From contig CAIQQH010000006.1 of assembly GCA_903873915.1 (NCBI GenBank), forward strand, positions 1-48,541: a stretch of 48,541 bases of DNA. Direction: 5' to 3'. Below are positions 6,521-33,393 of this stretch, piece after piece (within the stretch, counting starts at the first letter, position 1; each line of letters starts with the position of its first letter). Below the pieces are notes generated by a model. The model ran no database searches, had not been told where the DNA came from, and saw only the letters and a list, made by a program, of their open reading frames with translations. Source of the DNA: an uncultured Flavobacteriia bacterium. GTDB lineage: Bacteria; Bacteroidota; Bacteroidia; Flavobacteriales_D; Crocinitomicaceae. A program made the translations under genes and the position numbers.

Positions 6521-7933
6521 ATGAAAGTAGAACAAATCTATACAGGGTGCTTGGCTCAAGGCGCTTATTACATTGTTTCAGAAAATGATTCAATCATTAT
6601 TGACCCACTGCGCGAAACAGCACCTTACATTGAACGTGCTGAAAGAGATGGTGTCGAGATTAGGTACATTCTCGAGACTCACTTTCATGCCGATTTTGTA
6701 AGTGGTCACATTGATTTATCAAAAGCAACTGGCGCAACAATTGTTTTTGGGCCAAATGCAGCACCAACATATCCTGTGCATGTGGCCACTGATGGTGAGG
6801 AATTGTCCTTTGGGAAGTGCAAAATCCGCGTATTACATACGCCTGGACACACCATGGAAAGCACCTGTTATTTATTGATCGATGAGGAGGGTAAAGCACA
6901 TTCTTTATTTTCGGGGGACACCCTTTTTATCGGTGACGTCGGAAGACCGGATTTAGCACAGAAATCAGCCAGTATGACACAGGAGCAACTTGCAGCAATT
7001 TTGTATCATTCACTTCGAACGAAGGTCATGACGCTTGCTGATGAGATTGTTGTGTATCCTGCACATGGAGCGGGTAGTGCGTGTGGAAAAAACATGAGTA
7101 AAGAAACCGTCAGTACAATTGGTGAGCAAAAACGTCTCAACTATGCATTACGCGCTGACATGACAGAAGCAGAATTCGTTGCTGAGGTCACCGATGGATT
7201 GTTGCCACCGCCTGGATATTTCGGTGCCAATGTACACATGAATAAGTCTGGCTATGACCGTATCGATGAGGTGATGCAACGCGGTCTTCAGGCATTGAGT
7301 GTAGCGGCTTTTGATGCAGCGGTTAATGAAACTGAAGCGCTAATCCTTGACACCCGAAATCCACAGCTCTTTTCAGAAGGACATATTCCAAACAGCATAA
7401 GCATCGGTATTGATGGTCAATTTGCGCCATGGGTTGGTGCTATGATCCCAGATGTAAAACAGAAAATTGCCTTGGTGGCTGAGATAGGACGTGAAGAAGA
7501 AACAGTGAAACGATTGGCACGTGTAGGTTATGATCATGTGATTGGTTTCTTGGATGGAGGATTTGATGCTTGGAAACGAAGTGGGAAAGAAACGGATACC
7601 GTAAATCGGATTACTCCAGAGGAGTTCGCATATACTTTTTCTAAGGAAATCCACGTCATTGATGTGCGCAAGCCAGGAGAATACTCAGGAGAGCATGTAG
7701 ATGGCGCTGAAAATATACCATTGGATTTTATCAATGATTCGATGGCTGAATTTCCGAAAGAAGCAGCTTTTACCATCCATTGCGCTGGTGGGTATCGCAG
7801 TATGATTGCGGCTTCTATACTTAAGTCACGAGGATATCACAATTTTTTAGAGGTTGCTGGCGGATATTCTGCAATCTCAAAAACAAATGTACCTGTTACA
7901 GATTTTGTTTGTCCATCGACTTTGAAGAAATGA
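6521..7933 (+). CDS. CstB-like persulfide dioxygenase fused to two rhodanese domains
   Basis: 470 residues. Residues 1-245 form a metallo-beta-lactamase-fold persulfide dioxygenase with ETHFHADFVSGH (His54, His56, Asp58), HTPGHTMES (~107-115) and FSGDTLFIGDVGRPDL (~129). Two rhodanese domains follow. The first (~265-355) has lost the active-site cysteine: its loop reads LVAEIGREEETV. The second (~365-460) keeps it in TIHCAGGYRSMIA. A dioxygenase, a pseudo-rhodanese and an active rhodanese in that order is the CstB architecture, which converts persulfide to sulfite and thiosulfate. Together with the upstream TauE exporter it should act in cytoplasmic sulfide/persulfide detoxification. No sulfide:quinone reductase or CstR regulator lies nearby. 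The nested repeat array begins 14 bp after its stop. Confidence 0.9.
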   Translation: MKVEQIYTGCLAQGAYYIVSENDSIIIDPLRETAPYIERAERDGVEIRYILETHFHADFVSGHIDLSKATGATIVFGPNAAPTYPVHVATDGEELSFGKCKIRVLHTPGHTMESTCYLLIDEEGKAHSLFSGDTLFIGDVGRPDLAQKSASMTQEQLAAILYHSLRTKVMTLADEIVVYPAHGAGSACGKNMSKETVSTIGEQKRLNYALRADMTEAEFVAEVTDGLLPPPGYFGANVHMNKSGYDRIDEVMQRGLQALSVAAFDAAVNETEALILDTRNPQLFSEGHIPNSISIGIDGQFAPWVGAMIPDVKQKIALVAEIGREEETVKRLARVGYDHVIGFLDGGFDAWKRSGKETDTVNRITPEEFAYTFSKEIHVIDVRKPGEYSGEHVDGAENIPLDFINDSMAEFPKEAAFTIHCAGGYRSMIAASILKSRGYHNFLEVAGGYSAISKTNVPVTDFVCPSTLKK

Positions 7934-7946
7934 TGGTGATTTAGAA

Positions 7947-8173
7947 TTTGATCCCTGCGGGAATTTGATGCCAGAGGCAATTAAGAATTTGATCCCTTCG
8001 GGAATTAAGGATTTGATCCCTTCGGGAATTGAGGATTTGATCCCTTCGGGAATTTGATGCCAGAGGCAATTAAGGATTTGATCCCTTCGGGAATTGAGGA
8101 TTTGATCCCTTCGGGAATTTGATGCCAGAGGCAATTAAGAATTTGATCCCTTCGGGAATTGAGGATTTGATCC
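7947..8173. repeat. Nested tandem array of 17-bp hairpin units and 7-bp spacers, with a 65-bp higher-order period
   Basis: Ten full units and one decayed unit start at 7947, 7964, 7988, 8012, 8036, 8053, 8077, 8101, 8118, 8142 and 8166. Steps are 17 or 24 bp; the 24-bp step is the 17-mer plus a 7-mer such as TTGAGGA or TTAAGGA. Type A, TTTGATCCCTTCGGGAA, has a TCCC/GGGA stem with a TTC loop (TGC in the first copy). Type B, TTTGATGCCAGAGGCAA, has a TGCC/GGCA stem with an AGA loop, a compensatory base-pair swap. Blocks 8036-8100 and 8101-8165 differ at one base in 65. The array fills most of the 357-bp gap between two convergent genes. Neither 17 nor 65 is a multiple of three, which argues against coding. 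Confidence 0.95.
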
Positions 8174-8227
8174 ACCATAAAAGGTCTTAGATGATTAAGT
8201 GTGGTCGAGTCTTAAACTCTTGATGTC

Positions 8228-8276
8228 TTTACAGTCTTTTGTCCCTTGTCCTTTGTATTTACAGTCTCTTGTCTTA
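8228..8276. repeat. Short direct repeat and GGGACAA-type motif in a convergent gap
   Basis: TTTACAGTCTTTTGTC at 8228-8243 recurs with one change at 8258-8273, a 30-bp period. TTGTCCCTTGTCCTTTG at 8239-8255 is the exact reverse complement of 33343-33359 inside the GGGACAA array 25 kb away. GTCTCTTGTCTT (8265-8276) is the reverse complement of 33311-33322. The rest of 8174-8290 shows no gene and no clear terminator. Confidence 0.75.
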
Positions 8277-8290
8277 AAACCTTAACGTCT

Positions 8291-9583
8291 TCACTCTAAA
8301 CCCTCAGGTTCATGGTGGGTCATCAACACTTTGTCGATCCGAAGTCCATCAATGTCCATGACTTCAAAAGAATAATGGCCGTAAGGGACACGATCTCCAG
8401 ATTTAGGTACAGCTTTTAAATGTTCAAGGATAAAACCTGCAACAGTGGTGTATTGCGAAATATTGTCTTCTATAATTTCTTTTTGAAAGTATTGATTTAG
8501 CTCATACACCAAGGTTTTACCGTTAATCAACCAGGAGCCATCTTCACGGACGATGATGTCTTTCTCATCCGACTCATCCTCATCGGGCAGATCGCCCACA
8601 ATGGCTTCAATAAGGTCGTGTAATGTAATGATTCCTGCTACACCGCCATATTCGTCAATCACAACACCGATGTATTGTTTTTTTGCTTTGAATTGATTGA
8701 GTATTCGAAATGCGGGGGTGTTTTGCACTACAAAAATCGGTTGCTGAATGATGTTTGCTAATTTGAACTCCGGGTGCTTGTAGTTTTCTAAGAAATCCTT
8801 AACGCTCAGTACACCTTTCACCGTATTGATGTCCTCATCGCAAACAATGAATTTTGAATGCGCACTCTTGAGCAACTGGTTTAATATTTCTTCCGTTGAC
8901 TCATCTATTTTCACCCATTCCACTTCTGAACTATGGGTCATTAATGACTTGGCTGTTTGGTCGTTGAAGGAAAATAAATTTTGATGTACCTGGCTTTCAT
9001 CGCTTTCTAACACTCCTTGTTTTCCTGCATTGAACAGCATAAACTTTAGTTCCTCTTCACTCATGTGATCAGCATCATTTTCTTTGATGCCAAAAATTTT
9101 TAAAATGAGTTTTGTCGAAAGTGAAAGTAGTTTCACAAAGGGAAATGTCGCCAGTGTAAAGTAGCGGATAATGGGTGCTGTAACGAGTGCTATTGGTTCA
9201 GCATTGTTCATGGCAATACTCTTGGGTACCAATTCACCCACAACGATTGTGAAATACGTAATGCTACCAATCACAATGACAAGAGATACTTCTTCAACAT
9301 ATCCCTGCAAAAAGTGCACATCCGAAAGGAGTTGTGCCATATCGTCTGAAAGAGCTGCCCCTCCGTAAGCACCAGCGATAATGCCGATTAGCGTGATTCC
9401 CACTTGAACACTTGAAAGGAAATTTTCAGGATTTTCAAGAAGTTTCAAGATGGTTTTAGCGCGTTTGTCCCCTTGATCAGCCAAGTGTTCGATGCGGTTC
9501 TTTTTTACTGAAACCAAAGAAATCTCAGATAGCGCGAAAAATCCATTGAGCAGTGTTAAAACGAAAATAATAAGAATGTCCAT
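8291..9583 (-). CDS. CNNM/CorC-HlyC family membrane protein with CBS pair
   Basis: 430 residues from the ATG at 9583. An upstream in-frame extension of 23 residues is non-hydrophobic and would overlie the terminator region, so the start MDILIIFVLTLLNGFFALSE is preferred because it begins the first membrane helix. Order: DUF21/CNNM transmembrane domain (~1-190), two CBS motifs (~205-330, including SVKDFLENY and VVIDEYGGVAGIITLHDLIEAIVG), and a C-terminal CorC_HlyC FAD-like domain (~345-425). Members are inner-membrane proteins linked to magnesium or cobalt efflux; Flavobacteriia also have the gliding protein GldE in this family. Sequence alone does not tell which subgroup this is. Confidence 0.88.
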   Translation of the reverse strand: MDILIIFVLTLLNGFFALSEISLVSVKKNRIEHLADQGDKRAKTILKLLENPENFLSSVQVGITLIGIIAGAYGGAALSDDMAQLLSDVHFLQGYVEEVSLVIVIGSITYFTIVVGELVPKSIAMNNAEPIALVTAPIIRYFTLATFPFVKLLSLSTKLILKIFGIKENDADHMSEEELKFMLFNAGKQGVLESDESQVHQNLFSFNDQTAKSLMTHSSEVEWVKIDESTEEILNQLLKSAHSKFIVCDEDINTVKGVLSVKDFLENYKHPEFKLANIIQQPIFVVQNTPAFRILNQFKAKKQYIGVVIDEYGGVAGIITLHDLIEAIVGDLPDEDESDEKDIIVREDGSWLINGKTLVYELNQYFQKEIIEDNISQYTTVAGFILEHLKAVPKSGDRVPYGHYSFEVMDIDGLRIDKVLMTHHEPEGLE

Positions 9584-9623
9584 TGTCGTGTGCGAATTGA
9601 TTTTTCCGCAAGTATATTTCCTG

Positions 9624-9649
9624 TAAAAATAAATGCCCCGAAGGGCATT
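9624..9649 (-). terminator. Intrinsic terminator of the RRM gene
   Basis: On the minus strand: AATGCCC, loop TTCG, GGGCATT (9649-9632), followed by TATTTTT. A 7-bp stem closed by a UUCG tetraloop, 25 bp after the RRM stop and just ahead of the next leftward gene. Confidence 0.75.
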
Positions 9650-9673
9650 CAAAACTAGTATAATGTAAAGGTA

Positions 9674-33302: not shown

Positions 33303-33393
33303 AAGACGGAAAGACAAGAGACAAGGGACAAGGGACAAGGGACAAAGGACAAGGGACAAGGGACAAGGGACAAAGGACGGAAAGACAAGAGAC
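33303..33393. repeat. Heptanucleotide array, consensus RRGACAA (GGGACAA core)
   Basis: From 33311 the sequence reads in 7-bp steps as AAGACAA, GAGACAA, three GGGACAA, AGGACAA, three GGGACAA, AGGACGG. ACGGAAAGACAAGAGAC flanks it at both sides (33306-33322 and 33377-33393, 71 bp apart). It fills the 127-bp gap between two convergent genes. Open frames across it read as monotonous Leu/Pro/Cys/Val repeats and are not genes. Confidence 0.93.

Follow-up and report, generated by a model that had tools for sequence, protein, structure and literature searches.

The window analyzed here is a 48,541-nt stretch of the genome of an uncultured freshwater member of the Crocinitomicaceae (G000; a 2.82-Mb assembly in 137 contigs, 87.5% complete). 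Two convergent genes face each other in this window, one encoding an MBL-fold and rhodanese-domain protein (6521-7933, plus strand) and the other a CNNM/CBS/CorC-HlyC protein (8291-9652, minus strand) that is GldE/PaeA-like but scores under the NCBIfam cut-offs of those families. Between them, as a preliminary description of the sequence had reported, lies a mini-hairpin array (7947-8173, plus strand). It consists of ten complete units of 17 bp, all in the same orientation and some of them separated by a 7-bp spacer, followed by an incomplete eleventh unit, TTTGATCC, at 8166-8173. The complete units have the form TTTGATnCCnnnGGnAATT and are spaced by 17 or 24 bp. Seven are of type A (CCC/GGG), with the loop TGC at 7947-7965 and the loop TTC at 7988-8006, 8012-8030, 8036-8054, 8077-8095, 8101-8119, and 8142-8160; the other three are of type B (GCC-AGA-GGC), at 7964-7982, 8053-8071, and 8118-8136 (all on the plus strand, the first coordinate being the unit start). 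The units at 8036 and 8101 open two 65-bp higher-order repeats, 8036-8100 and 8101-8165, which differ at exactly one base. All ten exact matches to the pattern in the window fall inside 7947-8160. With up to two mismatches allowed, there are 23 matches in the 48.5-kb window, compared with a mean of 8.0 and a maximum of 17 in 100 shuffles, none of which equaled the observed count. Thus, the array is real, and the layout and the two stem types first described for it hold.

The array is not an isolated feature. There are 65 exact copies of TTTGATNCCNNNGGNAATT in G000 and none of the reversed pattern. Four relatives in the genus carry similar numbers (G004, 86; G008, 84; G011, 41; G016, 40), such that high counts are seen in 5 of 26 genus genomes; the remaining 21 have 0-3 copies each, and 0 or 1 occur in each of the 34 genomes from outside it that were searched. 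A stem-free definition of the unit, TTTG-N11-AATT, gives 603 matches in G000 and 138 for the reversed pattern, a ratio of 4.4, with ratios of 4.3-4.9 in the four other carriers and 1.9-2.4 in four non-carrier members of the genus. Because the non-carriers indicate that the reversed pattern lies about twofold below the true background, copy number is best judged by the ratio, which suggests an estimated ~300 units of this length in G000 by the stem-free definition. A two-unit pattern with free stems, scanned over the genome contigs of ~85,000 species, matched 88 stretches. Of the 80 that were analyzed, 33 came from four named assemblies of the clade and 47 from other organisms; 80/90 units from the clade were fully paired, compared with 0/99 from the other organisms. 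The family is thus restricted to a clade, both by the genome counts and by the species-wide scan. No viral contig matched a narrower two-unit pattern with C-G fixed, and blastn found no match to the repeat in plasmids. Closeness to G000 was checked by protein identity for two carriers only, G008 (96%) and G011 (95%). The public records of the carriers are metagenome-assembled genomes, with CANGIC01 (G004) deposited as Flavobacteriales and JAJTDQ01 (G016) as Cryomorphaceae. Two further carrier assemblies, CALPWQ02 (G008) and CAMBMC01 (probably G011), are deposited as Chitinophaga pinensis and are apparently mislabeled; at least one of them is placed in one genus together with an assembly that was submitted as Flavobacteriales.

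What is conserved in these units? Each combines an (A/G)ATTTG(A/G)T head, an AATT tail, and a hairpin in which three bases form the loop and the stem consists of a T-A pair and three variable pairs; the number of variable pairs is two in a 15-bp version. All three stem pairs are Watson-Crick in 97/167 anchor-only matches from 381 kb of G000, compared with 0/16 controls. Similarly, when 120 distinct 19-mers were collected from the carriers without regard to the stem, 68 were fully paired, whereas 2000 shuffles averaged 10.4 and never exceeded 21; there are 13 stem types. The outer stem pair is Watson-Crick in 218/232 copies from four genomes, compared with 100 expected under independence; the search pattern fixed CC and GG in all of these copies, which do not include the 84 of G008. 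The commonest outer pairs are G-C (116) and C-G (89), with one C.C and no G.G intermediate, and the exceptions to pairing are five of G.T type and nine others (four A.C, one C.A, and four of other kinds). Hence, compensatory stem changes are present across copies. Pairing is also tied to a narrow range of unit lengths. In 979 kb from three genomes, stems are paired in 39/62 matches with an inner length of 7, 23/55 with 8, 207/251 with 9, and 5/31 with 10, but in only 1/208 with inner lengths of 11-16; three stem pairs were demanded from length 9 upward.

Where the units lie bears on whether they act as RNA. The 381 kb of G000 contain 97 paired units, of which 90 are intergenic, six lie in called open reading frames, and one is at an edge. 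The intergenic units are divided among tandem (42), convergent (33), and divergent (15, in three regions) gene pairs, counts that rest on gene calls from a simple longest-ORF routine and do not represent a random sample, since the sequence was chosen partly around known copies. The preliminary description proposed that the array is an RNA element, either a bidirectional terminator or an mRNA 3′-end protector, and its convergent location fits such a role. Indeed, convergent regions carry units most often (6/26, compared with 12/146 tandem and 3/38 divergent regions in the G000 sample), as an end-of-gene function predicts. However, there is no terminator-like site, i.e., a G+C-rich stem followed by a T run, on either strand in 7600-8500. 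The four-pair hairpins are weak as RNA, with a mean of −2.1 kcal/mol, and 15 of the 97 units lie between divergent genes. Between tandem genes, units occur in both orientations (27 in the direction of the genes, 15 opposite). Rfam yields no match at the gathering score; a single sub-threshold match has an E value of 0.23 and 20.7 bits, where 57.3 are required. Moreover, the array is missing at the same convergent gene pair in another species, G022. An RNA role as terminator or 3′-end protector is therefore very unlikely. Binding of a protein to the array, the third role suggested there, is possible. A fold of the whole array as one RNA was also considered and rejected, with z-scores of +1.45 and −0.69 being no better than those of shuffles.

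There is more in favor of a role as DNA. The loop had been described as free to change, but across the family it is not: its anchor strand usually reads TNC, and the other strand thus GNA, and the C-G closing pair is almost invariant (65/68 distinct paired units). A GNA loop is found on one strand or the other in 165/204 C-G-closed units (152 with TNC on the anchor strand, 13 with GNA on it), compared with 94/498 background hairpins of like make-up (36 TNC and 58 GNA on the anchor strand). For the units with an inner length of 7, i.e., the 15-bp version, 37/39 paired units have GNA on one strand, and 34/39 have GC(TNC)GC, the opposite strand of which is precisely the d(GCGNAGC) heptamer. Extraordinary stability is on record for DNA mini-hairpins that combine a GNA or GNNA loop with two or more G-C pairs (PMC4686876, PMC6479982). 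The units resemble mini-hairpins of the d(GCGAAGC) type in being closed by C-G, in having a GNA loop, and in having two to three further pairs rich in G-C; they differ in that the mini-hairpin is known as a physical motif and an aptamer tool, whereas here it is part of a dispersed genomic repeat. None of the best 15 of 32,334 literature matches describes GCGAAGC as the central element of a repeat dispersed in a genome. Energy tables do not tell the two strands apart; since they also contain no special bonus for GNA loops, the case for stability comes from the literature. Mismatches offer a further view of the strand type. In the 232 copies, outer mismatches of G.T type (five) are as rare as those of A.C type (five), with no sign of an RNA strand. 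Together with the weak RNA hairpins and the lack of a terminator-like T run, this points to DNA. As far as the letters of the units go, then, the family obeys the loop rule of the extraordinarily stable DNA mini-hairpin, GNA closed by C-G.

Covariation across copies need not mean that pairing is maintained at each site, and copies at orthologous positions in different species address this directly. Of 59 mapped pairs, 15 were set aside for a flank identity <0.75, five because they belong to the window array, and one for having ≥5 differences, leaving 38 comparisons that are not all independent. These differ at 11/228 stem sites, 3/304 anchor sites, and 15/114 loop sites (eight of the 15 at the middle base), with 10.1% difference in the flanks. 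The stem rate shows no constraint because the query copies were picked as fully paired, and a rate of about half that of the flanks fits neutral drift along one branch. There were ten stem events, of which one was two-sided and paired; the other nine were one-sided, two giving G.T and seven giving no pair, and two of the one-sided events come from one retained pair (G008 L222 vs. G011) that is possibly misaligned. Thus, the proposal that structure is kept rather than sequence holds across the family but is not supported at single sites. Put another way, stem changes rarely break pairing when copies are compared with each other, but they largely do so when the same copy is compared between species (7/10 unpaired). 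Since the orthologous changes are largely one-sided and mostly break pairs, place-by-place selection on structure is unsupported. Pairing instead seems to be needed for a unit to be copied and not to be preserved in place, to judge from the nine one-sided events in ten. Some in-place constraint is possible, because the anchors change less between species than either the stem or the flank.

The locus in the window also varies. It holds ten units in G000, whereas G008 has 13 paired units and G011 two; there are none in G022, where the same convergent gene pair is separated by a 14-bp junction without the array. The first flanking protein in G022 is only 75% identical, and this array-free junction cannot be polarized. 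Elsewhere, whole blocks of hairpin plus heptamer are present in one species and missing in another, with no exact empty site.

Could mutation alone account for these patterns? Under mutational homogenization, template switching during replication would rewrite one arm of the hairpin from the other and slippage would make the arrays, with no need for selection or mobility. Published work credits template switching with both creating and repairing perfect stems (PMC8794818). The exchange of G-C for C-G, which dominates the outer pair, is a transversion swap with no G.U intermediate, and its C.C and G.G intermediates are nearly absent, which counts in favor of this explanation. On the other hand, nine of the ten stem events at orthologous copies are one-sided changes that stay uncorrected. 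Homogenization should also lengthen stems, yet these hardly ever have more than three variable pairs, and it leaves the anchors, the GNA loops, and the spread to hundreds of sites unexplained. We consider it an unlikely explanation for the family.

The family invites comparison with known short repeats. The closest may be the small dispersed repeats (SDRs) of Nostoc and its relatives (Elhai et al., 2008), which are reportedly 21-27 nt long and form families that share a hairpin with compensatory changes; they are said to occur often inside heptamer tandem repeats, to be clade-restricted, and to be probably mobile. The TTTGAT units share the size class, the covariation, and the confinement to a clade, and some of them adjoin 7-bp repeats. 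They differ in phylum, in their 15- or 17-bp period, in their TTTGRT and AATT anchors, in having one very short stem with a GNA-type triloop, and in forming long tandem arrays. Their length, 17 bp (19 bp with the common anchor) or 15 bp, falls below the SDR range. Of 149 paired units in stretches of G000 and G008, only 10 have two or more tandem CGTAAYT heptamers within 60 nt; such zones make up 0.5% of the sequence, a figure uncontrolled for the intergenic share. The 7-bp spacer of the array, AATTAAG or AATTGAG, resembles the AATTACG-type heptamers found elsewhere in G000. Heptameric intergenic repeats are described in other bacteria, e.g., the TAACTGA repeats of Beggiatoaceae (PMC4679880); the 7-bp register is common to both, whereas in the array the heptamer-length spacers alternate with hairpin units.

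REPs and REPINs provide a second comparison. Like them, the TTTGAT units are short hairpins found between genes, are numerous, and occur in either orientation; 10/46 clusters contain units in both orientations, some of them through near-palindromic units that match both strands. Unlike REPs, the units have no GTAG/GTGG guide, the bases 5′ of the stem being TTTG(A/G)T by the definition of the search, and their stem is 3-4 bp, where REP search rules call for 7-20 nt (PMC6006769). A REP-type family would be expected to have its hairpins beside the tnpA_REP gene, whereas no TTTGAT unit occurs at the four Y1 transposase loci of the clade (L056, L168, L169, and L170; 2.6-3.3 kb each, with 1029 bases of L056 masked). 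Where REPs and REPINs have RAYT (TnpA_REP) transposases, the Y1 enzyme here is of the IS200-like subclass 1.2. The protein scores 28.6 bits against REP_Tyr_transpos (NF047646), below the cut-off of 80, and 77.9 against transpos_IS200, above the cut-off of 55.

What, then, might move the units? One candidate is this Y1 enzyme. The idea is that the family is a REP-like element, in which a resident, single-copy TnpA_Y1 of subclass 1.2 binds the mini-hairpins in single-stranded DNA and spreads the units in trans. There is one Y1_Tnp gene in G000, and a gene resembling it is present in G008, G011, and G016, in flanking sequence that looks similar by eye, such that a single-copy enzyme is found in 4/5 carrier genomes. 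Its signature, DHVH or DHIH, WQ, and Y---Q--HH, is that of TnpA_Y1 subclass 1.2, an assignment that rests on signature and low copy number and not on the C-terminal domain of the subclass. Quentin et al. (2018) describe subclass 1.2, with its Y---Q--HH signature, as low-copy, mostly from Cyanobacteria and Bacteroidetes, and generally without IS ends, with no REPs listed and no hairpins associated with it (PMC6006769).

Other members of the genus lend the idea some support. Y---Q--HH genes in six of them (G024 at L165, G022 at L166, G005 at L167, G020 at L171, G002 at L174, and G025 at L183) sit among multi-copy hairpins, with 5.4-9.9 hairpins per kb of intergenic sequence, compared with 0.9 at 24 control loci; the controls numbered one or two in each of five of these genomes, G024 had none, and the control locus of G022 itself reached 2.6 per kb from a single hairpin. 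The association is not special to subclass 1.2, since class-2-like Y1 loci reach 4.4 per kb, in a classification by motif script that covered 19/26 Y1 loci (unclassified: L172, L173, L181, L182, L184, L185, and L186). The hairpin GTCCC-NNN-GGGAC is multi-copy in 4/26 genomes (G005, 25; G022, 16; G007, 10; G024, 7; 0 or 1 in the rest), three of which have one Y1 type in common, while the unclassified Y1 gene of the fourth, G007, adjoins two of the hairpins. A second hairpin, AACCC-NNNNN-GGGTT, occurs 13 times in G002, and five of these copies lie no more than ~1.2 kb from the Y1 gene. Copies of GTCCC-NNN-GGGAC and of AACCC-TGAAG-GGGTT often form doublets ~51 bp apart.

Several observations weigh against the Y1 enzyme as the mover of the TTTGAT units. 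First, the units are absent from the four Y1 loci of the clade. Second, a different 17-bp hairpin, CCCCCTC-NNN-GAGGGGG, adjoins the gene in G000 (C10:11437-11453), G016 (C36:2667-2683), and G011 (C151:5620-5636). Among the 26 genus genomes it is found in those of the clade only (G011, 9; G000, 2; G008, 1; G016, 1; G004, 0), and it is for these reasons a better candidate for the partner of the enzyme. Third, G004 (91% complete) has no Y1 match despite its 86 TTTGAT units, and G009 has seven AACCC hairpins, likewise with no Y1 match. Fourth, class-2-like Y1 loci are hairpin-rich too. Fifth, the scores noted above fall on the IS200 side and not on the REP side. Sixth, a replication-strand bias is lacking: in stretches with GC skew beyond 0.02, 15 clusters have the same orientation as the skew and 15 the opposite one, with the G000 and G008 sites being partly orthologous. 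The enzyme is thus a candidate for the mover and not a demonstrated partner, because the hairpin beside it is of another kind and TTTGAT units are absent around it; spread of the units in trans by this enzyme is possible but doubtful. A broader reading is that subclass 1.2 is a REP-type single-stranded DNA system in its own right, the hairpins of which have been overlooked because they are short, with enzyme lineages of this genus owning hairpin families of their own and the TTTGAT units being a minimal derivative moved by the same enzyme. Among the literature matches listed, within open-licence PMC, neither hairpins of subclass 1.2 nor the TTTGAT repeat is described. We regard this broader reading as speculative and rather improbable; if it is true, subclass 1.2 would also be a possible engine behind the SDRs of cyanobacteria, the second phylum in which it occurs.

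On balance, the array is probably one site of a clade-specific, dispersed, tandemly amplified, and mainly selfish repeat of the SDR/REP type, a single-stranded DNA mini-hairpin, a reading that we hold with modest confidence. The copy number, the clade restriction, the mostly intergenic placement, the narrow length, the covarying stems, and the constrained loop are direct observations; we infer that the unit acts in the form of single-stranded DNA. Copying to new places would be limited, wholly or for the most part, to units that fold into a stable mini-hairpin, and would be carried out either by an enzyme that processes single-stranded DNA or by fold-back synthesis during replication. Tandem arrays could then arise by slippage or unequal recombination in the 7-bp/17-bp register, and copies, once placed, would decay like the DNA around them. 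Such a repeat would be a very small element that behaves like cyanobacterial SDRs and REPs, with no demonstrated service to neighboring genes. Some findings count against this selfish, single-stranded DNA reading. The GC-skew bias that a lagging-strand mechanism might produce is absent; the copies that differ between species, the array-free junction in G022 among them, include no new insertion into a dated empty site; convergent regions carry units most often, and the anchors change least between species. In addition, G.T or T.G mismatches outnumber A.C or C.A mismatches (10 vs. 3) among the 25 distinct units with a single mismatch, a weak hint of RNA tolerance.

Other repeats surround the family. 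Arrays of AATTACG/AGTTACG-type heptamers occur near the contig end (48274-48541 in the window) and at L001, L056, and L168, and some of them contain a GTGGCT...AGCCAC palindrome. GACAAGG/GACAAAG heptamer repeats lie at 33313-33393 and ~8200-8300 in the window and in several other intergenic regions of the clade, and recurrent palindromes, e.g., CTTCTTCGCTCTTTGAGCTTCGAAGG and TTCCGCAAATGCGGAA, are found near repeats of this type (L160, L022, and L035). The intergenic regions of the clade thus look like mosaics of several repeat families.

What are the implications? We see the TTTGAT family as a clade-restricted variant of the small dispersed hairpin repeats, one in which the signature of a DNA mini-hairpin is unusually clear. 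If the favored reading is right, it would be a near-minimal dispersed DNA repeat, 15-17 bp long, in which what replicates is defined by its fold and not by its sequence, and it would be a genomic repeat that obeys a rule known from oligonucleotide chemistry. The association of Y1 enzymes of the subclass 1.2 type with hairpin families makes the mover of SDR-like repeats directly testable. Finally, stem covariation across copies, which is usually read as a sign of RNA function, could instead arise from the way in which a DNA element spreads.
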